Virus record (IMG/VR): IMGVR_UViG_3300044614_000191
Location: 1-32,101 of that record
DNA from: a virus
Length of the DNA stretch: 32,101 nucleotides
Strand: one strand, 5' to 3'
Part shown: positions 17,217 through 30,033 of the stretch, one piece after another
How positions within the stretch are numbered: the stretch's first letter is position 1
How the letters are laid out: each line of letters starts with the position of its first letter
Translations under genes and position numbers: made by a program
The notes under the pieces: model-generated
Databases searched by the model: none
What the model was told of the DNA's origin: nothing
The model's input: the letters and a program-made list of their open reading frames with translations, nothing else

Positions 17217-17400
17217 ACCAGAGTGGATCTTCCCGTTTGACGGGATGGAGGTAGGGGACAGCTTTTTTATCCCTACTCTTAAGCCAGCAGAGCTTATCTA
17301 CATCATAGACACGCGCTCCAAGATCGCCGGTATAAAGGCGAAGGCTTACGCCTCATCCAAGGATGGATGTCTTGGGGTGCGGGTATGGAGGGTCGGCTAA
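17200..17400 (+). CDS. Conserved-looking small phage protein (66 aa)
   Basis: The 66-residue protein contains FPFDGMEVGDSFFIPTLKP and ends GVRVWRVG, with a basic middle (AGIKAKAYASS). I recall this pattern (FPF-M-VGDSF ... GVRVWR) in small proteins downstream of primase genes in many phages; function unknown. ATG 17200 overlaps the primase gene by 17 nt. It is the last rightward gene, and its TAA stop overlaps the stop of the convergent 2329-residue gene by 4 nt. No clear bidirectional terminator lies between them. Confidence 0.75.
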   Translation: MQQLTEPEWIFPFDGMEVGDSFFIPTLKPAELIYIIDTRSKIAGIKAKAYASSKDGCLGVRVWRVG

Positions 17401-20400
17401 GGCTCGACCCCGTACTCTTCTGCCATCTTGACGAAGTTTCGTGCGTACATATCGCGGATAGTGCGGTACATATCGACGGTGGGGCGGCGCTGGTTAGGCG
17501 GCAAGTCGCTAGCGCTCATGGTGTTTAGTTTCTCACGAGCGTCACGCATTGGGCCGTTGACTACGTTGTTGTAGTAGTTGACCAGAATGAGGGCTTCCGG
17601 ATTGTCCTGAAGATACTCCAGATACGCTTCGCCGCCGTCCTTACGGTTCTTGAACATGTTGAGAGTGTCACGCATCTTCTCAACTTTCTTCTCGACTTCA
17701 GCAAACTCACGAGCGTCCACACTGCTGCGCTTGCCGATAAACGAATCGAACAACGTCAGGTCACGCTTAGCGTCAAAGTCTTTGTTGTTTGCAACCGTCA
17801 AGCTAAGCCCGTACATATTCGTAACTACACGGGACATACCATCCGCATAGTTATTTGCGAAGAACGCAACAGTCTGAGGCTGCCAATTGATTGCACCGCC
17901 ACTAATCTCTACCAAGAATCGAGTGACCTTCTTGTATGCCTCTGGTACATATTCGCCACCACTGTAGGCATCACCAAAGCGACTGGAGCGGGCGTTGTAA
18001 ATCTGCTTACCAAACGTATCCACGTTCATGACGTACTCAACCGCCGGACGCAGTGCAGAAGGAACCGCACTATCTACAAGCCATGCAGCAGGGTTGTCAG
18101 TCGGGTTGAACCGGGCAACCGGAATTGGGATGAATGAGTCCAGCGTGATACTGACAGAGTTGGCAACAGCGGAACCAAACGAATTACCGCCCATTGCCAC
18201 GCCCATCCACTGAGCGCCCATCGCAGCAAACGCGCCCGCACCGAAGCCCCACGGTACGTTAAAGAAGTCGTTGTCCTTACCCATGATGGGATTCAGGAAC
18301 TTCATGGGGAGTCGCAGGTTACGGGTCCAGATGTCCATGTCGTCAGTCAGGACACGGTTACGTCCTTGCTCATCATCCTCCGCACCCATCACCGCCATGA
18401 AATAAGCAAAAGCTCCAGCACCAGCAAGTGCCATGATGGTCATCTGCGCCGTATTACGACGCTCCTCGTATGTACGTTTAAATTCTTCAACAGCAGCGGG
18501 GTCGTTGCGGACCTGTGCGGGTAAGTGACTCAGCGCCTGTTCCAACGGCTCAAAGGCCGGACGCAGAGCGTCAATCGCACGGACAGCACCTGTTGCTGCA
18601 GGGCGGAAGAACATGAAGGCAGCACCAGCCTCGCGACCATACAGACCCACCTGCTCAAAGTTGGCGAGTTCTTTTGCGTACGCCGCCGCCCGGATCTTGG
18701 ACTCCTTGGTAATGGTGTCGAGTTCAGCCTTAGTCGGCTTACGTCCGGCTCGTTGCTCAAAACGCTTAGTCGATTCAGCGATGTAATTACTCTTCATGGC
18801 AGCGTAGGCCGCAGCACGTGAGGTGAACTCAAACGCGTCAGTCCATACGTCAACGTAGGTATCAAATTGTTCTTTGGTCTGGATGATCTTGCTACGGCCC
18901 ACATCTTTCAGCAGTGACTCTACCTGTCCCTGCATCGCCATACCCATGACGTAGGAAACACGGCCCCCTTCTTCCAGATACTCAAACACGTTGGCAGCAC
19001 CCTCATCCTTCACGGAACCATCAGGGTTAAACGCCATCTTTTTGATCTCATCGACCTTGTTCTGGGCGTAGAGCGCCGAGATCTTACCGGCCTTGTAGAA
19101 GCCGTTGTCTGCAACCTGACGAGCAATCGCACCGATAAAGTTGTAAGCAGCCTTGCCACCCTTCTCCGCACCGACAGTCCACGTGTTAGTCAGTACGTCG
19201 CGCACGAAGTTGTACGGATGGAACGCCGGGTTATATCGGGTATGCATCGCGCCAATCAAACTGGTAAAGGCGTTGGCCTTATCCAAGATCGGGGAGTTAG
19301 CGCGGAACGTACGCCTAATGGATTCGCTGATCGCCTTGTCCTTATCAGAGATCTCGTACACCTCGATGGTGCCGTCCGGCATATAGTGGAAGAACTTGTT
19401 GTTCCCCATCACTTCTGCAGGATCAAACCCGTTGAACCGTTGCTCAAAGGTGATCGTCTTGTAGAGCTTACCGATGATGTACTTCTGATTGATCAGGTTC
19501 TTCAATGACTCCGAAACGCCCTCGCGTCCGGCACGGGTAGCGGCTTTGGCACCGTCCACCATCGTCTGGATTAGTGGGTTGTCAGAGTCAGACAGGCGGC
19601 CTTCCGTGCCGTACGCAAATTCGTTGAAGTCTTTAGATGAGATGCGGCTGTAGCCAAGCTCAAGGGTTTCATCGCCAGCCGTCACATCGGAGGAAGGCTT
19701 ACCCTTAAACGGTACGTAGTTCTTGTATCCGTAGAACGCCGTCAGGTTGGTAGTTGGCTGCGACCAATAGTTCGCCATCTTGTCGAGCTTGATCGTGTTC
19801 TCCTGAATCTTCTTCAGGGCGCTCAACATTTCGCTCAGTTCTTTCTTGTGCGGGTCAGCATCGTACTGAGCCTTCATCTCCGCGATCTGAGTCTTGGTGT
19901 AGCCACCAACCACGTTGTAATCAGGTGAGTCGAGATCCACCGACTTAGTACCCACTGGGCTGAAACCCTTCGGGTCCTTGTATCGCTCGACTATCTCTTC
20001 GAGTCGCGCACGGAGTTTTTCTGCATCCGTCTTGCCGTCCGGACCTTTCTTAGTCAGATCGACGTTTTGCGCCAGCATATCGAAAATAGCCTTACGCGCA
20101 TCGGCAGGAGTCATCTCCTTGCCGCCAAAGTTCAGCTTGGTCTTGTTGTCGAGCGGAACATTCTTTAGATACTTGATCAGGCGGCGCTCTGGCTCGTGCA
20201 GGGCCATGACATACATGTGCAGGCGACCCAACGCAGAGTTGACGTCGATCTTCTCTGCTTTAGCATAATCGTGAATCGCGCTCTGCAGATCCTGTACGTG
20301 CGGCTGAATGTCACGGGTCATCAGGTGGAATGCCTTACCAGACGACAACATGATCAAGTCGTAAATGTTGTTGTAGCCCGGTGCGCCAACGATCATCTTA

Positions 20401-23400
20401 CCCGCATACATCAAAGCATCCTGCAGGCGCTTCAACGGACGACGCTCGTTCTGGAACATGCGAATCAGGTTCTCAGTACCTCGGTAGGATACCTTCTCCT
20501 TGATGGCTTCCTTGATACCGTAGTTCTGTCCAGTCTTCTCGCGGATCTCTTCTGCGAGGCGGGTTTCAATCTCAGCCGGGGTTTCAGGCTTGCCCGCAGG
20601 AGCCTTAATCCGTTGTTCATCCACAAAGCTTCGGAGACCGTTACCGTTTAATTCGTCACGCAACGGTGAGGTATCGATATCACTCCTGAGCGCAGCAGTC
20701 TGCGGTACTACCTCCGGCGACATGATCTGACTACTGACTCGCAGTACTTCAGACAGGGCTGTATCTTCTTTCGGACTTAATCCAAGGAAATCGCGCACGA
20801 TCTCAACGAAGTTATCCCACAGAGTTTTGTCCTGCTTGTAGGGGATGGACTCCAAATAGTCCTGCATGTTCTTGTTGGACAACGCCCAAGCGACAAGCTC
20901 GCGAGGGTTCTTCAGTGCATTTGAACCACCCTTGAACTCACGCTCCAACGGAGAAAGATCTTTGTCCGGGAAATTCTTACGCGCCTTGAAGTGCTTGATG
21001 ACCGCACTAAACAACTTATCCAGATCTTTGCCAGCCTTGTACAGTTTAGTACCGGGCTTAGCGTTTTTCGCCAAAAGGATCGAGTGCGAAGTGACGGCGT
21101 GGACCAATTCATGGAGGACGGTCTCGTAGTCCGTACCAAACTGTCCACTGATTGATAACTCCGGCCCGCGCAGAGCAATAATTGACGAGCCGTTAAGCGG
21201 ATCAAATGTATGAGAACCAAGCGTTCCACTCTTAGCGAGAGTTGGATGATTTTTTAAATTCCCGCGATCAACAACGGTCAGGTTAATTCTGTAGCCTTGA
21301 TCTATGTACTGCTGCAAACGTTCTTTGACGCGCAGAGCGATAACTTCATATGCCTTATTCGGCGCGTTGTCAGCAAGGTATTGAGCAATATCAACAACCG
21401 ACCGCCCACGAATGTCGTCAGCAAACTTTATCGCTTGTGCGAGTCGAGTAAGCACGTTGCTAGTAGGCGTAGAAACGGTCGGCGCTTTAGTAATTGGTGG
21501 TAGCTTCAACTGCTTGCGGAGCACCGAGATGTCGCGATTGATTTCGCTACGGAGTGCAGCACCTTGCTGACGAGTCTCCGGATTCATCTCCATCTGCTGG
21601 GCCTGTTGCAGACGCTGTTTAAATTGCTTAACTGCTGTGGCGTACCCTGCCTCACCCGTCTCCTTGGCAGGCTTCAACGGACGAAGCGCCTTAGCAACGA
21701 TAGTCCGCACACCATCCAGATCAGTCTCTGGGTTAAAGCCCGGTTGTGCCCGAGCCGTACGGATCAGGTTCTGGATGCGGTTGTAATTGAACGGATCAAG
21801 CCGCTTCTCTTTGACGGCGGTCTCTGCTAACTGCTGAATGGCGGCAATATCGGTAGGTACCGCGCTAAGTTCTTTCTTAGTGACCGGAGCTTCGCGGCGG
21901 GCCGCTTGCTGTGCCTGTACTTCAAGCTCTTTGTCTTTAGGCTTTTCTGTAGTGGCCTTAGCAGCAACCTTCTCAACTTCGGAGAGACCGCCTAAAAGTG
22001 CAGAGTATTCCCCCTTGATACGCTCTTGGGTTTCTTTCTCTTGATCTAGTGCACTTGGCTCAGGCGCTTTTCCGCCAGTAGTAGGTTGAGCAGATACCCC
22101 AGCGCCAGCCAATCCTCCTTGTTGAGGTGGCACAGTTCCGGTGTCGGGTCTTTGTCGTTGTACAGGCAGTCCAGTGCCGCCGAGAACTCGTCCTCGCTCA
22201 GTTCCAGCACCCTCCGGTACTTCTCCTTTTTGTATTCCTCTTCCAGCATCTGGAGCGAATGTAGCAGGTGCAGCTACCGGTTGGCGAGTCTGAGGGCGAT
22301 ATATCGGCGGCTGGGGTGTTGTAGTTTGACCAGTAGTCGGTTTAACAAATGCTGTCGGAGCCGCTGGCTCTGCTATCGCCTGCTGAATCTCGTTGAACAG
22401 CTTCGTGTTCTTTTCTATCTGCTTGTTCAGTTTAAATTTATTCGCCTGCGGGTCCTGACGAGCAGCCTTGACTTCTGCAAAGCGCGATGCGAATTCCTGC
22501 AGGGTCTCCGGATCAAACCCAGCGGCGTCAGCAGCCTCAAGCAGCTTAGCCAATCCAGTGTCATCGAGACTTTCCCACTCAGCGATGGCAGGACCACGGA
22601 CTTTCTTACCGGTAGGAGCTGGGGCAGCAGGGGTGGTAGTAGGCGGAGCTTCCCCGCTTACTTGCTCAAAGCCGCCCAGTATCTGAGACAGGTTAACTTC
22701 ACCGGCAGCAATCTCTGGCGTGGGTTCTCCGGCTAGAGCCTTGATAGGCTCTACTTCAGACGTAACCTTTTCGGGTTCGGCTTCTTTGACCTTGTCTGCA
22801 GCCCGCTTACGGAGAATGTCTTCTGCTTCGCGACGTTTGTCAGCGTTCTGAAATACCCCCGACACACCACCGATACCACCGCCGAAGATGGCAGCAGCGG
22901 CACCCGCTTCGAAAAATTCACCCCGAGCATCAGCATCAGATAGGGAAAGCCCAGCCTGCCAGCGTTCTAAAGCCTGCTGTGCAATTTCTTGTGGGATCTC
23001 GAAAGCCACGCCTTTGCCGATACCAGCTACAACTCCTTTACCAGTGGAAAGGGCGTTGTTTTTAAACGCATCGACCAAAACGTCTTCGGCTTCTTTGGCG
23101 GTTTTTTCCGCGCCTTCACCAACCAAATTGTTGAGCAGAGGGAACTTGCTGAACAGCGGTTTAAAAAATTGAAACCCAATCTGATCCAGTTTGGTCTGGC
23201 CGTATGCAGCCACCAAGGCTTTTGGTAGATCAGTCGCTTGAGGATCTTCACCCGCATCGATCTGTTCTTGCTGAGTCTGTGCCTGTCGAGTCAGATTACT
23301 GATTGCGTTTTGAGCGCCAAGGACACCGAAACCGACCAAACCCGCTGGACCCGGAGCCTTAGTAAGAATTTTTGCAAGCTGAGCAGCAGCACCCGGAGCA

Positions 23401-24386
23401 GCGAGATAGCCCGCCATCGCACCGCCAGTACTCTGCACCCAGTCAACAAAATCGCCTGCGCTACGAACCTCTGACAGAGGGATAGATTGGTACTCAGACT
23501 CTTGGGTCTTAAGTAACTCTTCACGCGCAGCGGGACGGTCTTCGCCTTCAGCCACACCAAACTGTGCCGCCGCCGGAAGTCCGAGAATCGTGCCTGCAGC
23601 TTCTTTGGCTGACGAGAAAAACCCAGCACGTTCTTTAGGCGTTTCAGCCGCGCCTTCTTCAGCCGCCGGAGCCGGAGCTTGTGTACCACGCAGCGTACGA
23701 TATGCCTGAGCAACCGCCTTAAATTCCGGCGTCTCAATCTTGTCTTGGTTCTGCATCAGGTACTGGGCGTACCGTACCAAGCGCGTTTGATTGTCGTACT
23801 GGGGCGAAGCCTCTTGAACAGGTTCTTCTAATTGGGTGTTAATCGGCAGAGCAGCAATCTGTTCCGTCGTCAGGCCTGTGAGCTTGGCGATGCGAGGGGC
23901 TTCCTGCAGGGGAACCAATTCAGGTGCAGCGACAGGCTGCTTCGGGTTCTCCGTCACGCCGGGGGCAAGTTCTTTCTGTCCGCTCGCAGACTGAGCCGCC
24001 ATCAGGTATTGGTCTGGGGCGTATGGGTCTTTACCGTTCTCGTGAGCGACGATAGCCGAGCTAAGCTTAGCCAGCATATCTGGATCTTCAAGATTTAAAG
24101 GCTGCGTCGGATCGATACCCAGTTTCTGGGAGACCGAGTTGATATAGGCAGAAGTATTGTTTTCGCTAGCCGGTGCCCACCGAGGAATGATGTCCTCGAT
24201 AGTCTGCAGGCCATACTTGCGAGCGTAGTTGAGAAGATTTAAAGACAACGCCCGAAGGCCGTGCTCCGGGGTTTGGAACGTCTCAAACCGCTCGTCTTCT
24301 CCCGCTATCTTTCCGAGCCAAGGGATGTCAGAAAGAACGATGTTGCCCGGATTGTTATTCCGAAGCCCACGCGGGAGATCTGCCAT
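17397..24386 (-). CDS. Giant polyvalent virion protein (2329 aa), lysozyme-like and HExxH domains
   Basis: The N-terminus (about 5-115) matches the phage lysozyme-like module with RNNNPGNI, ERFETFQTPEHGLRAL and the IPRWAPASENNT segment. Low-complexity linkers (about 560-800) follow. A metallopeptidase motif HELVH (H1092, E1093, H1096) lies mid-protein. The C-terminal third has hydrophobic segments (for example MALAGAGAFAYFMAVMG near 1985) and resembles ends of large phage polyvalent proteins. Such proteins are packed in the virion, may cut peptidoglycan and enter the host with DNA. The upstream ribosome site is GGGAAG. A nested frame overlaps codons 713-780. Confidence 0.8.
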   Translation of the reverse strand: MADLPRGLRNNNPGNIVLSDIPWLGKIAGEDERFETFQTPEHGLRALSLNLLNYARKYGLQTIEDIIPRWAPASENNTSAYINSVSQKLGIDPTQPLNLEDPDMLAKLSSAIVAHENGKDPYAPDQYLMAAQSASGQKELAPGVTENPKQPVAAPELVPLQEAPRIAKLTGLTTEQIAALPINTQLEEPVQEASPQYDNQTRLVRYAQYLMQNQDKIETPEFKAVAQAYRTLRGTQAPAPAAEEGAAETPKERAGFFSSAKEAAGTILGLPAAAQFGVAEGEDRPAAREELLKTQESEYQSIPLSEVRSAGDFVDWVQSTGGAMAGYLAAPGAAAQLAKILTKAPGPAGLVGFGVLGAQNAISNLTRQAQTQQEQIDAGEDPQATDLPKALVAAYGQTKLDQIGFQFFKPLFSKFPLLNNLVGEGAEKTAKEAEDVLVDAFKNNALSTGKGVVAGIGKGVAFEIPQEIAQQALERWQAGLSLSDADARGEFFEAGAAAAIFGGGIGGVSGVFQNADKRREAEDILRKRAADKVKEAEPEKVTSEVEPIKALAGEPTPEIAAGEVNLSQILGGFEQVSGEAPPTTTPAAPAPTGKKVRGPAIAEWESLDDTGLAKLLEAADAAGFDPETLQEFASRFAEVKAARQDPQANKFKLNKQIEKNTKLFNEIQQAIAEPAAPTAFVKPTTGQTTTPQPPIYRPQTRQPVAAPATFAPDAGRGIQKGEVPEGAGTERGRVLGGTGLPVQRQRPDTGTVPPQQGGLAGAGVSAQPTTGGKAPEPSALDQEKETQERIKGEYSALLGGLSEVEKVAAKATTEKPKDKELEVQAQQAARREAPVTKKELSAVPTDIAAIQQLAETAVKEKRLDPFNYNRIQNLIRTARAQPGFNPETDLDGVRTIVAKALRPLKPAKETGEAGYATAVKQFKQRLQQAQQMEMNPETRQQGAALRSEINRDISVLRKQLKLPPITKAPTVSTPTSNVLTRLAQAIKFADDIRGRSVVDIAQYLADNAPNKAYEVIALRVKERLQQYIDQGYRINLTVVDRGNLKNHPTLAKSGTLGSHTFDPLNGSSIIALRGPELSISGQFGTDYETVLHELVHAVTSHSILLAKNAKPGTKLYKAGKDLDKLFSAVIKHFKARKNFPDKDLSPLEREFKGGSNALKNPRELVAWALSNKNMQDYLESIPYKQDKTLWDNFVEIVRDFLGLSPKEDTALSEVLRVSSQIMSPEVVPQTAALRSDIDTSPLRDELNGNGLRSFVDEQRIKAPAGKPETPAEIETRLAEEIREKTGQNYGIKEAIKEKVSYRGTENLIRMFQNERRPLKRLQDALMYAGKMIVGAPGYNNIYDLIMLSSGKAFHLMTRDIQPHVQDLQSAIHDYAKAEKIDVNSALGRLHMYVMALHEPERRLIKYLKNVPLDNKTKLNFGGKEMTPADARKAIFDMLAQNVDLTKKGPDGKTDAEKLRARLEEIVERYKDPKGFSPVGTKSVDLDSPDYNVVGGYTKTQIAEMKAQYDADPHKKELSEMLSALKKIQENTIKLDKMANYWSQPTTNLTAFYGYKNYVPFKGKPSSDVTAGDETLELGYSRISSKDFNEFAYGTEGRLSDSDNPLIQTMVDGAKAATRAGREGVSESLKNLINQKYIIGKLYKTITFEQRFNGFDPAEVMGNNKFFHYMPDGTIEVYEISDKDKAISESIRRTFRANSPILDKANAFTSLIGAMHTRYNPAFHPYNFVRDVLTNTWTVGAEKGGKAAYNFIGAIARQVADNGFYKAGKISALYAQNKVDEIKKMAFNPDGSVKDEGAANVFEYLEEGGRVSYVMGMAMQGQVESLLKDVGRSKIIQTKEQFDTYVDVWTDAFEFTSRAAAYAAMKSNYIAESTKRFEQRAGRKPTKAELDTITKESKIRAAAYAKELANFEQVGLYGREAGAAFMFFRPAATGAVRAIDALRPAFEPLEQALSHLPAQVRNDPAAVEEFKRTYEERRNTAQMTIMALAGAGAFAYFMAVMGAEDDEQGRNRVLTDDMDIWTRNLRLPMKFLNPIMGKDNDFFNVPWGFGAGAFAAMGAQWMGVAMGGNSFGSAVANSVSITLDSFIPIPVARFNPTDNPAAWLVDSAVPSALRPAVEYVMNVDTFGKQIYNARSSRFGDAYSGGEYVPEAYKKVTRFLVEISGGAINWQPQTVAFFANNYADGMSRVVTNMYGLSLTVANNKDFDAKRDLTLFDSFIGKRSSVDAREFAEVEKKVEKMRDTLNMFKNRKDGGEAYLEYLQDNPEALILVNYYNNVVNGPMRDAREKLNTMSASDLPPNQRRPTVDMYRTIRDMYARNFVKMAEEYGVEP
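22046..22249 (-). CDS. Nested overlapping gene candidate (67 aa) inside the giant virion gene
   Basis: On the same strand but shifted by one base, this frame encodes 67 residues with natural composition: LSEDEFSAALDCLYNDKDP, then ELCHLNKEDWLALGYLLNLL. Its codons are CTG-, AAG- and GAG-rich with G/C third positions. The host frame over the same bases is a Gly/Gln/Pro-rich linker using rare-looking AGA, CGA, GGA, CAA and ATA codons. That asymmetry suggests the nested frame is under selection. No strong ribosome site precedes ATG 22249; AAGGAG lies before an internal GTG (about 22213). Function unknown. Confidence 0.55.
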   Translation of the reverse strand: MLEEEYKKEKYRRVLELSEDEFSAALDCLYNDKDPTPELCHLNKEDWLALGYLLNLLLAEKRLSQVH

Positions 24387-24388
24387 AG

Positions 24389-26353
24389 TTACTTCCCAGT
24401 GCCAAGTGCCATGTCCACGATGGCGTCAGTCGGAGAAAAGTCGAGATCGCCACTAGCCGGATTGTACTGGATTCCAGCCATGTAAGACGGAATCTGCATA
24501 TTCATCTGCACCTGCCGCCGGATTAGTTCATCCATTTCAGCAGTGGCAGCCTGTTTTTCTTGTGGGGTTTTGGCTTGTGCGTACTTTACTTGAGCCGCTA
24601 CATAAGCGGGATTGTCAGCGATTTCTTTCTGCGCCTGAGCCGCCAACTGACTCTGTGCTCGGATCTGGGCGTTCTGCAGCGAACTTGCAGCCTTTGCCTG
24701 CGCCAGACCCATACTCGTTTCAAGTTGAGCCTGAACAATCATCAAGCCACGGGCGTTGTCACGAGCCTTTTCAGCGCGGGCTTGAGCATTCTCATATCGC
24801 TTCAATGCAGAGCCACGGAGTTCGCCACGTGAAGCCTCGCGCAGCTGCTCCATGTCCATCGTGAATTTGTCGAGGTCTCTCTGAGCCTTCTCTTGTTCAG
24901 CACCGAGGAACTCTTGAGCCTTCATGTAGCCGCCGAGACCCTCAACTGCAGCAGCGAGGAACTTCTGCGTCTCGTTACCGGGCTGGCCGCCTTTAGCAGC
25001 TTGCTGAGCCATCGCGAGACCTGCGGCCACGAGCGCACGACCAAAGTTGGAGTCTTTACTCTGCTTGAGCTTCTCCATACGTTCAGTCTTGATTCGGTCG
25101 CCTTCAGTAAACATTTTGCTGAACGGGCCAGTACCCTCTGCTTCAGCGCGTTTGAGAAGCTTCTGATATTCACTGTCTTCCGTAACTGCGTTTTCAAGAC
25201 TCGCACGAGCAGACTCAATCGCAATCGGAATGTCGAACATGCCGCCACGGGTTTTGGCGGAGCTAATACTAGGAGCAATACGACGCTCTGGTTTAGCTTC
25301 TTCCTTTGGTTTGGCCGCTTCGGCCTTTTTCTCAGCAACGCGTTCGGATTCACGGTTGCCAAACAGACCAAGAGTCGCTCCGGACAAGAACGAACTAATT
25401 GAATCGCCAACGTTCTCCAAGGCTTTTTTATCTAGATTTATAGCGCCCTGAGCAATTGGACCACGTTGTTCTTGGTATCCAGAGAATCGATCCCCCGGCA
25501 ATGCTAGAGGGTTGACTGGAATGACCGGGCGATCTTTTTCCTCTTCTGCTTCACGTGCAGCTTTTTCACGCAGGTCCGTAATTAGTGCACTCGTGCCACC
25601 AATGCCAGCCAACGCGCCAAGGCCGCTACGAATCCAACTGGACTTCTTAGCAGGAGCAGCCTCAGCCTCAACAGCCGCAGACGGAGAAGCTTTCGGAGTT
25701 TCAGTAGCGTACCCCTGACTCTTACGCCAAGCTTCTGCCTCGCGGCGCACTATGCTCGGGCGATCAGGGTATACGAGTCGGCCACCTTCTATTTTAGCTC
25801 CTTCAAGGCGCTTTCCAGCGGCTTGTCTATATGTGCCGTCTTCTAACTTGTGCCAAAGATTTCCCTTGTCATCAACAATATTAGTGACAACACGCTTCCC
25901 TTCCGGAACGTCTTCAATCACCTCCGGATAGTTTTCAAGGCCGATACCATAATTACCAAGCCCCATTCTTCCTTCGGCTGCTTTTTGCCGCATCATCTGC
26001 ATACGGATTTGCTCCGGAGTCAGACGCGGCATCATGTCATCAACGAGGTCACCCGAAGCAAACGCAACGATGCCGCCTTCGGCAAACTGAGGCTGGAACC
26101 CCGGAGTCGGGAGCGCGGCGATTCCCTGATACGCTTGATTCAGTTGGTCGCGAATAGTGTTCTGTGGGGGCTGTTGCTGCATCTGGCGCAGCTTCGCGGC
26201 CTGAGCCATCATGGTCCCAAGATCAGGGGAAATGTTGTCTAAAAGCAACTGCTGTGCATAAGCGGCTGCCTGATCAGGGGGCATACCACTAGCTTGTTTT
26301 TGATTTATTGATGCTTCAGCAGCACGGCCTAGCGTGCTAATTGGTCCCATCAT
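24389..26353 (-). CDS. Virion protein, probable internal/ejection protein (654 aa)
   Basis: The 654-residue protein is helical, Ala/Gln/Glu-rich and contains long coiled-coil stretches (about 500-620). Near residues 88-100 lies FAEGGIVAFASGD, a motif type also seen in the 840-residue neighbour. A hydrophobic Gly/Ala segment (RSGLGALAGIGGTSALI) lies near 245. Its position between two structural genes and its composition resemble internal virion or ejection proteins of short-tailed phages. The start is ATGATG at 26353, sharing one base with the upstream stop (TAATG); ribosome site GGGAG. Function inferred from context. Confidence 0.65.
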   Translation of the reverse strand: MMGPISTLGRAAEASINQKQASGMPPDQAAAYAQQLLLDNISPDLGTMMAQAAKLRQMQQQPPQNTIRDQLNQAYQGIAALPTPGFQPQFAEGGIVAFASGDLVDDMMPRLTPEQIRMQMMRQKAAEGRMGLGNYGIGLENYPEVIEDVPEGKRVVTNIVDDKGNLWHKLEDGTYRQAAGKRLEGAKIEGGRLVYPDRPSIVRREAEAWRKSQGYATETPKASPSAAVEAEAAPAKKSSWIRSGLGALAGIGGTSALITDLREKAAREAEEEKDRPVIPVNPLALPGDRFSGYQEQRGPIAQGAINLDKKALENVGDSISSFLSGATLGLFGNRESERVAEKKAEAAKPKEEAKPERRIAPSISSAKTRGGMFDIPIAIESARASLENAVTEDSEYQKLLKRAEAEGTGPFSKMFTEGDRIKTERMEKLKQSKDSNFGRALVAAGLAMAQQAAKGGQPGNETQKFLAAAVEGLGGYMKAQEFLGAEQEKAQRDLDKFTMDMEQLREASRGELRGSALKRYENAQARAEKARDNARGLMIVQAQLETSMGLAQAKAASSLQNAQIRAQSQLAAQAQKEIADNPAYVAAQVKYAQAKTPQEKQAATAEMDELIRRQVQMNMQIPSYMAGIQYNPASGDLDFSPTDAIVDMALGTGK

Positions 26354-27498
26354 TACTTGCCACTCCCAAATCCGCCAAGGAGTCCGCCCAATCCTGCCAG
26401 ACCCAGACCACCAATAATACCGCCCATGCTAGGAGGTGCTTGATAACGCTGTTGAATAGCGCCTGAAGCCGGGGTACCACGGAGAATATCCGAGAACCAA
26501 GACAACTGCTGAAACGGCAACTGCTGCTCGTTGAGGAACTGCTGGTAACGGCTAGCAAGATCCTGCTGACCCAGAGCCTGAATCTGCGAACCCGCACCGA
26601 GTTGAGCCTGATTGATACCCATCCGCTGCTGATAGTCGTTCATACCCAAGCCGCCAAGAGCCTGAGCCGCCGCAATCTGCTGCGCCAAACCCTGCATCCC
26701 GAGGCCAGCACCGAACTGACGGGACTGCTCACCCAACTGTGCCCCAGCCAGACCGTATTGAGCGCGTTGACCCGCACCCTGCATACCAAGCTGGTTGAGG
26801 TTCTGAAGCTGGTTGAGTTGCATCTGCTGCATACCCTGACGAGCCTGCTGGTTAGCAAGATTCGCCTGAAGCCGCGCAGCCTGCTCCGTGTTGAATTGCT
26901 GCTGTCCCTGCTGGAACGCGTTCTGCAAACCTGTGGCTTGAATACCACCAAGTTGATCCTGAAGACTGCGCTGCGCTTCCGCTTGGAGCAAAGCCTCACG
27001 AGTACCGCCACGAGCGCCTGAACGAATACCGGCTGACTGGAGTCCCGGAATCTGACGGGAATAGTCCCGAAGTGCCTGTGACTTTTGCTGTTCAACAACG
27101 CCCTGCATATAGGGCGACATGTAATCCTTCGTAGCGCCCGGACGGGTAAACGACTGAGTGCCAACTCTATCGTAGTCAAACCCCATCTCGCGCATCTGCG
27201 GGTCTTGGTAGTAGTTCACCGCTTGGTACGGATTGTATTGCCCCATCTGCTGAGCGCGAAGTCCAGCCAGACCAGCCAAGCCCGTAGCCTGACCAATCTG
27301 CGGAGAAACTTTCATCCCGGCAACGTCTAAGAACGCTTGCTCTTGAAGCGGATTGAATTGCTCAACCATCTGCCCCGGGTAGGCTTGGAATCCACGACGG
27401 GAAAGCCTTTCAGACTCTCCTAGCAGACGCTCAGCGTAAGGCTTAGCCCATTCCGGGATGTTGGAAGTAACTTGAACTGTTTCAGTTGGGGATGCCAT
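26353..27498 (-). CDS. Gln/Gly-rich virion protein with hydrophobic C-terminus (381 aa)
   Basis: The 381-residue protein is extremely rich in Gln, Gly, Leu and Ala, with repeated QQ-L-N/Q-L spacing over residues 150-330. It ends in a Gly-rich hydrophobic stretch (about 357-379, GIIGGLGLAGLGGLLGGFG) that could insert into a membrane. The N-terminal part (EWAKPYAERLLGESERL, and YMSPYMQGVVEQQ) recurs in my memory of short-tailed phage ejection proteins. ATG 27498 has TAGGAG upstream. Likely part of the DNA-ejection apparatus; this is inference from composition and order. Confidence 0.65.
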   Translation of the reverse strand: MASPTETVQVTSNIPEWAKPYAERLLGESERLSRRGFQAYPGQMVEQFNPLQEQAFLDVAGMKVSPQIGQATGLAGLAGLRAQQMGQYNPYQAVNYYQDPQMREMGFDYDRVGTQSFTRPGATKDYMSPYMQGVVEQQKSQALRDYSRQIPGLQSAGIRSGARGGTREALLQAEAQRSLQDQLGGIQATGLQNAFQQGQQQFNTEQAARLQANLANQQARQGMQQMQLNQLQNLNQLGMQGAGQRAQYGLAGAQLGEQSRQFGAGLGMQGLAQQIAAAQALGGLGMNDYQQRMGINQAQLGAGSQIQALGQQDLASRYQQFLNEQQLPFQQLSWFSDILRGTPASGAIQQRYQAPPSMGGIIGGLGLAGLGGLLGGFGSGK

Positions 27499-27510: not shown

Positions 27511-30033
27511 TTAGGCAGGCATGTAGTTCCGGGGATTAACTTCCGGAGCCTGCCTTTCACGACCCGTCCGCACTTTGCGAATCCGGTCCATCATTGCGTA
27601 AAGTTGTTTTGCACCAGCATCGGTTGATCCGTTGCCAAGATGCGACACTACATCTGCAGGAATTACAAACTCGCCGTCTGCAAGTCGGGCTTCCTGTGTC
27701 CCGTTAATATTGGCCTTGATGTCATCAGACATGCCATCGCCAGCCCCGTTGACGAGCTTACCGCCTACAGCGAACTGCTGCAAAGAGCCGATCCCGCCCT
27801 GAGCGTAGCCGGGGACATATCCACCACCCGCGAACCCCTTGTCGTAATCGGTGTTCTCTTCGATGATGTTCCCTTCTTCGTCGTAGATAGTACCGCTATA
27901 GTTCGGGCCAAAAACATCGTCACCCGCTGCCTTAGTTAGGCCGAAGCGTTCTTGGCTCAAGCTGGGCAGGAACGGACTAAAGCCGCCACCGGTACGCCCG
28001 GTAGAAGCAGGAGGCTCAGCGGGTTTTTCTTCTTCCTTCTCTTCTTCAACCGGCTCGTCGGTCTCAATCTTGACCGTAGCCTTCTTTTCGTCAGCGGCCT
28101 TCTTTTCCTCGATAGCCTTTTTGATCTCAAGAATAGTGCCTAACCCCGGAACAGCTAACTTCGCTATTTCCGTAAGTGCCGCCATGCCGAGATCCTTCAT
28201 CTCTTGCTTCTTCTTTTCAGCCTCGGCCTTCTGCTGTTCATCAAAATCTTTAAGGATGTCATCGACAACGGACTTACTTTCGTCCCCGATCTTTTGCGTT
28301 GATGGGGGATTGGTAAAGCCAAGTTCGACAAACTCTGTGCCGATTGGTTGTTCATTAACAGAAACAATTCCCCTGCTAGGCGGAGGCGACGACGCGATTG
28401 GAGGAGCTACACTAGCCGGAGCGCCCGCGTAATCCGAAGCAATATTTTTTGGATCGAACACTTCAATCGAAGTTTCGGTGTCTTTTTCTTTGTCCTTTTG
28501 CGGCTCAGACACAATAGGCGGCAATCCGCCAGCACCGGGAGGGCCGGAGATAGAACCGATTTGTCCCGTGTAGTCCTCGGTCGTAGTGCCCGGCTCCGCA
28601 GTAATTTCTATACCCGGCGTCTTCTCATCCTCTGGCGGAGGCTCAGTCGGGAACTCACCCGGAGTGCCAAACAAAAATCCTAAGTCCTCGGGTCTTGCAC
28701 CCGGAGCAACAGAACTCGGAGGAGTCAATTCTTCCTTGGGAGGTGGAGGCGGAGGAGGGGGCGGGGGAGGTGGCAGCAAATCAATCGGAGTGCCAGTCAC
28801 GCCAGTAGCGAATGGATCATTGCCATCCGGAGTCGGAGAAGTACCGCCAGCACCGCCAGCAGGACCAGTCGGCAACGCAGAAAACTCCCAGCCCGGGCCG
28901 GAAGATTTATATGGCGTCTTCAGGCGGTTACGGAGTTCGTCCAAATAATTTTTCAACGCCGAGGTATCACGTGGCGTCGTATCAGGGGGTACTAGCAAAC
29001 TCTCGTAATAAGCCTTCAACCCTTCCCGGTCTTGAGTGAACTGCGGGTTGACTGTAGTCGTCGTGACTTCAGGCGGGTTATAGATGCTAAGTGGCTGAGG
29101 CAGAACAGCGCCCGGAGACACCATGACCTCACCGCCATCAGCGAACACTTCATCCCCCGGACTGACCATGCCGCCTTCGGCATAACCCGGATAGGTATCA
29201 GAGTAATACCCCGGCTGGAAGTACCACTCGCCGTAGCCTTGACCGTACTTCGGATTGACTGCGCCCGGGATGTAATAACGAGGTTTCGAAAGCCGCTTGC
29301 CCTTCTGATCCTCTTCGTCGTAGTCCGGCATCATCGCCGTTTGAAGACCGATAGTCGTCGCGTACTTAGAAGCAGCCTTACCGAACGGAGAGGTGTAGCC
29401 ACCTTCCAAACCAGATTTAAATGCCTCGCGACCTTTTTCACTCATCAAAGCTTTAATACCGCTCCAAACCCCGGTGTCAGCTTTAGGCTGAGTAGGCGGA
29501 GCAACAGCAGGCATGGGGGTAGTCGGACGGATAACCGGTACACCAAAATCTTCGTACTTTGGATCTAATGGCTTCGTCAGATCACCATAGTCCAGCAATT
29601 CATCTTCCTTCAGACCTAGCTGTTCACTCAGTGTTTTAGGAGCCGTCAAAGCAGATGCGGCTGCCGCTCGACGCAGTCCCTCGCTGATATTCGACCCACT
29701 GTAGGCACTGAACCCTGCGTTAAGGCCCTTCTTGACGCTGCCTTCGATCAAGCCGGTAGCTGCACCGACAATCGCACTAGTAGCGGTAGAGCCGAGGCCC
29801 GGGAAAACTCGATTCAGCGTAAAGCCCGCAATCGCGGGGATCAGGTTCTTGAGCCATCCGGCTTCCGGGAGTCCCGTCTGAGGGTTAATGGTCAGCGACC
29901 CGCCTGAAGCAAGCGCAATAGCCTGTAACCCCTGAACTTCCCCGGGGGTCATGTGGACTAGGACCTTATCTTCGCCACGGCCCTGTGAGGCTAGAAGGGA
30001 GGCGAGGCCGCCCTGCGGATAACCCTGATTCAT
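27511..30033 (-). CDS. Large virion-associated protein with 12-proline run (840 aa)
   Basis: The 840-residue protein begins with a Gly/Ala-rich hydrophobic region (about 60-150). It carries Tyr/Gly-rich tags (PGYAEGGMVSPGDE, FADGGEVMVSPG), twelve consecutive prolines (421-432, coded by mixed codons) and a long disordered acidic/Pro-rich middle. The C-terminus has GAGDGMSDDI and DGEFVIPADVVSHLGNGS (786-803), a motif I recall from phage tail or virion proteins. ATG 30033 follows GGGGGAA. Its order between fibre-like and ejection-like genes suggests a virion or assembly role. The mechanism is unknown. Confidence 0.65.
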   Translation of the reverse strand: MNQGYPQGGLASLLASQGRGEDKVLVHMTPGEVQGLQAIALASGGSLTINPQTGLPEAGWLKNLIPAIAGFTLNRVFPGLGSTATSAIVGAATGLIEGSVKKGLNAGFSAYSGSNISEGLRRAAAASALTAPKTLSEQLGLKEDELLDYGDLTKPLDPKYEDFGVPVIRPTTPMPAVAPPTQPKADTGVWSGIKALMSEKGREAFKSGLEGGYTSPFGKAASKYATTIGLQTAMMPDYDEEDQKGKRLSKPRYYIPGAVNPKYGQGYGEWYFQPGYYSDTYPGYAEGGMVSPGDEVFADGGEVMVSPGAVLPQPLSIYNPPEVTTTTVNPQFTQDREGLKAYYESLLVPPDTTPRDTSALKNYLDELRNRLKTPYKSSGPGWEFSALPTGPAGGAGGTSPTPDGNDPFATGVTGTPIDLLPPPPPPPPPPPPKEELTPPSSVAPGARPEDLGFLFGTPGEFPTEPPPEDEKTPGIEITAEPGTTTEDYTGQIGSISGPPGAGGLPPIVSEPQKDKEKDTETSIEVFDPKNIASDYAGAPASVAPPIASSPPPSRGIVSVNEQPIGTEFVELGFTNPPSTQKIGDESKSVVDDILKDFDEQQKAEAEKKKQEMKDLGMAALTEIAKLAVPGLGTILEIKKAIEEKKAADEKKATVKIETDEPVEEEKEEEKPAEPPASTGRTGGGFSPFLPSLSQERFGLTKAAGDDVFGPNYSGTIYDEEGNIIEENTDYDKGFAGGGYVPGYAQGGIGSLQQFAVGGKLVNGAGDGMSDDIKANINGTQEARLADGEFVIPADVVSHLGNGSTDAGAKQLYAMMDRIRKVRTGRERQAPEVNPRNYMPA

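Follow-up and report, generated by a model that had tools for sequence, protein, structure and literature searches.

A conserved small gene probably nested in frame +1 of a giant ejection-type protein gene in uncultured podovirus-like phages

The 32,101-nucleotide stretch of viral DNA analysed here (the window) contains a minus-strand gene (17397 to 24386) for a giant virion protein of 2329 amino acids with PHROG and Pfam matches. An earlier note on this DNA had described, inside that gene and on the same strand, an open reading frame running from ATG to TAG (22046 to 22249) and coding for 67 residues, and it is present as described, in frame +1 relative to the host gene. We believe, with a probability of about 0.93, that this stretch is dual-coding and that the nested gene is real, its translation being inferred in the absence of expression or proteomic data. 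The reading that we prefer is shorter (22046 to 22210, minus strand), with GTG at 22210, TAG at 22046-22048 and a predicted product of 54 amino acids (MLELSEDEFSAALDCLYNDKDPTPELCHLNKEDWLALGYLLNLLLAEKRLSQVH), and it is based on the family alignment, the comparison of starts and Shine-Dalgarno (SD) sequences and the frame-specific selection described below. In this reading, internal initiation within the mRNA that encodes the giant ejection protein, at a ribosome-binding site belonging to the nested gene itself, would yield a separate protein of about 54 amino acids translated in frame +1 from GTG 22210 to TAG 22046. This small product would be produced alongside the ejection protein, and the host frame would read the same bases as a flexible linker rich in Gly, Ala and Pro. 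Since the hidden gene persists in about 155 uncultured viral relatives, the sequence comparisons indicate that it is a real gene missed by standard annotation. It represents a strongly supported overlapping gene of tailed dsDNA phages, located in the interior of a virion gene that is annotated as a single protein.

The nature of the host gene was inferred from its matches and its neighbours. Residues 4-189 of the protein match the phage head/endolysin family phrog_873 (E 3e-53), which gives it an endolysin/transglycosylase-like N-terminus, its C-terminal region matches LPD38, and a neighbouring gene (26353-27498) matches a DNA ejection protein (phrog_4287). Because of these matches, what the earlier note had called a virion gene is best read as encoding an ejection-type protein; its transglycosylase-like N-terminus and the adjacent DNA ejection protein gene are the features by which gp16-like proteins are recognized, and the window gene meets both. 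The genes at 24389-26353 (654 amino acids) and 27511-30033 (840 amino acids), which lie beside it, had no PHROG match at E 0.001. Three relatives were scanned (L014, L043 and L048); LPD38 was found in them and the transglycosylase-like N-terminal match was not. The host proteins of two of these relatives (L043:4050-9905 and L048:5759-12379) match part of the virion RNA polymerase family phrog_2206, namely profile positions 2004-2272 and 2082-2250 of 3406, and the PHROG search found no match to that family for the host protein of the window. The nested ORF overlaps host codons 713-780. Throughout the family, the part of the host protein encoded by the overlap abounds in Gly, Ala, Pro, Val and Thr and nearly lacks aromatic residues, a composition that would fit a flexible linker.

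The region was found in three IMG/VR contigs, and the nested frame is kept in all of them, with the start and the stop of the nested ORF common to the two complete relatives and the third one truncated by the contig end. Open length alone is nevertheless weak evidence because, when the host residues were recoded with the codon usage of the gene, the nested frame stayed open in 69% (window) and 48% (a relative) of the trials. This survival is what would be expected of a chance shadow ORF without any product, generated by a host composition rich in Gly, Pro and Gln, and other shadow ORFs of the gene (for example 23027-23257) are also open in the relatives. The distribution of substitutions, however, speaks against chance. 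Between the window and relative B, the changes at host codon positions 1, 2 and 3 were 165, 88 and 650 over the full gene, but 21, 13 and 7 in the 67 codons of the overlap (chi-square P 9e-15 for the contrast), and a sliding scan of 67 codons located the most extreme inversion of the host gene exactly at codons 712-713, that is, at the nested ORF. The inversion was absent from the other alternative-frame ORFs of the host gene with at least 45 codons, except for antisense frames overlapping the nested ORF. A 216-residue ORF in antisense orientation (22086-22736, plus strand) was considered and rejected; the relatives carry stops in it. The nested protein accumulated 15 amino acid changes between the window and the relative, against 24.7 +/- 2.4 expected, and the host protein 26 in the overlap, against 24.2 expected without amino acid constraint, so that the host residues are nearly unconstrained there. 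Moreover, the 334 differences between relatives B and C in this gene all fall outside the overlap. The earlier note had accepted that stops or indels of the nested frame in relatives, or a lack of excess conservation at host synonymous sites, would refute its proposal. Neither was found: start, stop and open nested frame are kept, and the host synonymous sites of the overlap are unusually conserved, with a substitution pattern inverted to suit the nested frame. Its description of the host segment as a tolerant linker was also borne out, both by the nearly unconstrained rate of change and by the family-wide composition.

To delimit the family, about 60 homologues, mostly 37-48% identical, and some distant prophage proteins were retrieved with an alignment of the host C-terminus. 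An iterated HMM of the nested protein then yielded 51 loci (E <= 8e-14), each of which lies at the equivalent position, in frame +1 of a host ORF that runs on without interruption. Later alignments of the nested proteins alone, without the host gene, produced 80 and 40 loci, and the frame was +1 in a long host ORF for 79 of the former (the other one was cut by the contig end) and for all of the latter. After repeated contigs had been removed by hand, the nested protein was present in about 155 IMG/VR contigs; wherever the context was readable, it lay within the homologous giant ORF and in frame +1, and no stand-alone copy of the gene was found. A host homologue in another contig (L061:2649-9710) has a different middle segment and no nested gene, which makes it informative as to when that gene was gained or lost, and the gene is likewise absent from distant prophage and Vibrio host homologues. 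For most members the nested proteins align at 24-39% identity, with the consensus xLxxLxxxQxExALxxLxxPxxxxxPxxLxxLxxxEWxxLxxxLxxLLxEKxxSxLH. A terminase encoded on the contig of L014 shares 49-52% identity with its counterparts in Pelagibacter phages HTVC027P and HTVC023P, phage DSL-LC04 and phage 023Pt_psg01, and the nested HMM had no match in the sequence covered for HTVC027P, DSL-LC04, 023Pt_psg01 and Synechococcus phage MinM2, the last three in part only. The carriers form a large, diverse set of uncultured podovirus-like phages, through which the nested gene and its host gene are inherited together, and, as far as these collections show, the family is known only from uncultured viruses.

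Selection on both frames was then assessed in 35 separate close pairs in which each sequence was used once. The substitutions at nested positions 1, 2 and 3 amounted to 240, 116 and 420, and in every one of the 35 pairs conservation was higher for the nested protein than for the host protein read from the same bases (overall identity, 0.88 versus 0.72); outside the overlap, the same host genes displayed the usual excess at host position 3. Taken with the inverted codon-position pattern, the conservation of the protein in distant relatives and that of the start and its SD sequence, we give practically no weight to a chance shadow ORF and regard it as already refuted by the frame-specific selection. 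Conserved host synonymous sites could also reflect an RNA structure (not tested) or another cis-acting element acting on the bases rather than through a protein. This is very improbable: the changes respect the nested codons, being most frequent at position 3 and least at position 2, and an element of this kind would not explain an amino acid alignment at the low identities noted above. As to the host frame, it is open across the overlap in 104 of 105 members, versus 5.6% expected from recodings that preserve the nested proteins. This figure and the selection on the nested protein show that both frames are maintained, the host frame being functional across the overlap too. The sole member with a host-frame stop inside the overlap (L134:8087) has an intact nested frame, and the stop, which is close to the contig end, is possibly an assembly error for that reason. 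In two pairs of host genes (L034/L036 and L042/L044) the middle is far more diverged than both ends, with amino acid identities that are often 12-50% per 50 residues while the nested protein is 93-98% identical; around the nested gene, the host gene thus has the look of a mosaic or of a fast-evolving sequence.

The length of the product depends on the start codon. The ATG at 22249 lacks an SD sequence (+1.9 kcal/mol), whereas the GTG at 22210, 13 codons downstream in the same frame, is preceded by a putative ribosome-binding region (22211 to 22230, minus strand) with a duplex energy of -8.7 kcal/mol and aligns with the start codon of the remaining family members. For these two reasons we prefer the GTG, and the 67 residues of the earlier note are probably too many. 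The three nearest relatives retain the 13 additional codons, which are absent across the wider family; however, the use of ATG 22249 is not excluded, because the alignment shows that both changes of relative D within these upstream codons leave the nested residues unaltered. The spacing in the window is not ideal, since its two SD elements, AAGGAG (22228-22223) and GGAGG (22215-22211), lie 12 nt from the GTG and abutting it, respectively, and the family mostly has 6-7 nt (80 of 105 members). A start codon is present in all 104 members scored (87 ATG, 16 GTG and 1 TTG), and in all of them the SD duplex energy is -5.3 kcal/mol or better, a value reached by 21% of the matched background windows, likewise scored by their best start. 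This regularity bears on programmed +1 frameshifting, by which ribosomes would append an alternative C-terminus to an N-terminal host fragment and no separate protein would exist. The same strand, the +1 frame and the long host part upstream would all fit such an event, and some members have no stop in the nested frame for tens of codons ahead of the start. Yet an in-frame stop immediately precedes the start codon in 11 of 105 members, which makes entry by frameshifting impossible in these, and lies within 10 codons of it in 37; together with the start and SD sequence kept in 104/104, this leaves frameshifting highly improbable, and internal initiation at the start of the nested gene remains the preferred explanation.

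The earlier note had also argued from codon usage, considering that a random shadow frame would not show normal codons at the expense of the host frame. This holds for the window, where the codon adaptation index (CAI) is 0.80 for the nested ORF, 0.79 for the gene mean and 0.56 for the host frame in the overlap, the latter below every sampled host-frame window (minimum 0.57), and where the nested ORF has the best codon likelihood among the +1-frame windows of the gene. Family-wide it does not, as the mean CAI in 104 relatives is 0.62 for the nested frame and 0.60 for the host frame in the overlap, even though the latter is below the 5th percentile of its own gene in 98 of the 104. Native codon usage in the nested frame of the window and not in the host frame, a criterion reviewed in PMC8227390, could indicate a reverse origin, in which the small gene is the older one, captured by ORF fusion, and the host linker is newly read. 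But the difference vanishes across the family, old de novo genes also gain native codon usage (PMC8227390), no stand-alone copy was found in the IMG/VR contigs and distant host homologues lack the nested gene. Therefore, a reverse origin is unlikely, although not negligible, and the codon-usage argument on origin was dropped because it fails family-wide. Of the overprinting proposed earlier, dual coding within a tolerant linker is supported, but it has not been shown that the nested frame is younger than the linker frame.

The predicted 54-residue protein (6.2 kDa, pI 4.4; family median pI 4.6) is rich in Leu and Glu, acidic, helical and soluble-looking. AlphaFold2 modelled the 67-residue reading as three helices (mean pLDDT 88) and the 54-residue reading, with 43 sequences, as two (mean pLDDT 81), so that the N-terminal helix of the longer model is unreliable. 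No convincing match to the nested protein was found in PHROGs, Pfam, NCBIfam or PDB sequences or structures, and every match in fold searches was insignificant. The window protein as a single-sequence query had no match in phages, plasmids, PHROGs or Pfam because the relatives are too divergent, a problem that the alignment of the host gene overcame; scans of bacterial genome contigs with the nested alignments gave no match. A hit in a Microcystis phage (H31, E 1), antisense to its transglycosylase gene, was rejected as chance, and so was a PADLOC match to PDC-M16B (best E 2e-4 over 43 members), which is weak and internal to a profile of 471 positions. We found neither a hydrophobic signal nor a lipobox at the protein start and no match to spanin families, and an Rz/Rz1-type spanin, which would have to be a nested lipoprotein with a signal peptide, was thus discarded. 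Neither the nested protein family nor its placement was found in the libraries or the literature searched (open-licence papers only), and the terms "overlapping" and "nested" are absent from a review of ejection proteins (PMC8954989).

With regard to function, only tentative proposals can be made. Genomic linkage alone suggests that the product might be a co-expressed partner of the ejection protein, acting as an assembly or loading factor or as a minor core protein, and we favour this role since the nested gene was never found away from the ejection-protein gene. The stronger version, that this undescribed family is an obligate partner, co-translated with the giant ejection protein and required for its assembly or loading, is more doubtful. 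Bacterial enzymes are frequent targets of small acidic phage proteins, and no homology points to assembly, so the product might instead act on the bacterium, in takeover or counter-defence. Such a target is possible rather than likely, as the nested gene stays with a single virion gene across about 155 contigs, unlike mobile accessory genes, and the PADLOC match is too weak to lend support; even so, a role directed at the bacterium and one as partner of the ejection protein are about equally open. Whatever the role, a nested gene within a flexible host linker provides a clean system to study how two frames share bases, and frame-specific selection scans of viral metagenomes can uncover missed proteins.

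Nested overlapping genes are already known as a kind, and in the spanins of phage lambda Rz1 lies in the +1 frame of Rz. Rz1, embedded in Rz, is a small same-strand gene in another frame (PMC5295617, PMC6139136) and, like the gene described here, it is nested in a gene of a dsDNA tailed phage, has its own start and is conserved across phages. In contrast, Rz1 belongs to the lysis cassette and is a lipoprotein of the outer membrane, whereas the present product is a soluble-looking, acidic, helical protein encoded inside a giant ejection protein, and no sequence relation was found. As Rz and Rz1 illustrate, a nested phage gene can specify a partner of the protein whose gene contains it (PMC5295617), a precedent for the partner role by analogy only. 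Internal overlap with the nested frame at +1 is the common arrangement among the overprinted viral genes of one review (PMC8227390), with which our family shares both this frame and a partner segment that looks disordered. That dataset comes mainly from eukaryotic viruses, however, and its +1 de novo proteins are depleted in acidic residues, while the family described here is prokaryotic and its proteins are acidic and rich in Leu and Glu. Finally, the host protein resembles the T7 gp16-like and P22-like ejection proteins (PMC8954989) in its transglycosylase-like N-terminus and adjacent ejection protein gene, although with 2329 amino acids it is much longer than the gp16-like proteins of that review (609-1337 amino acids).
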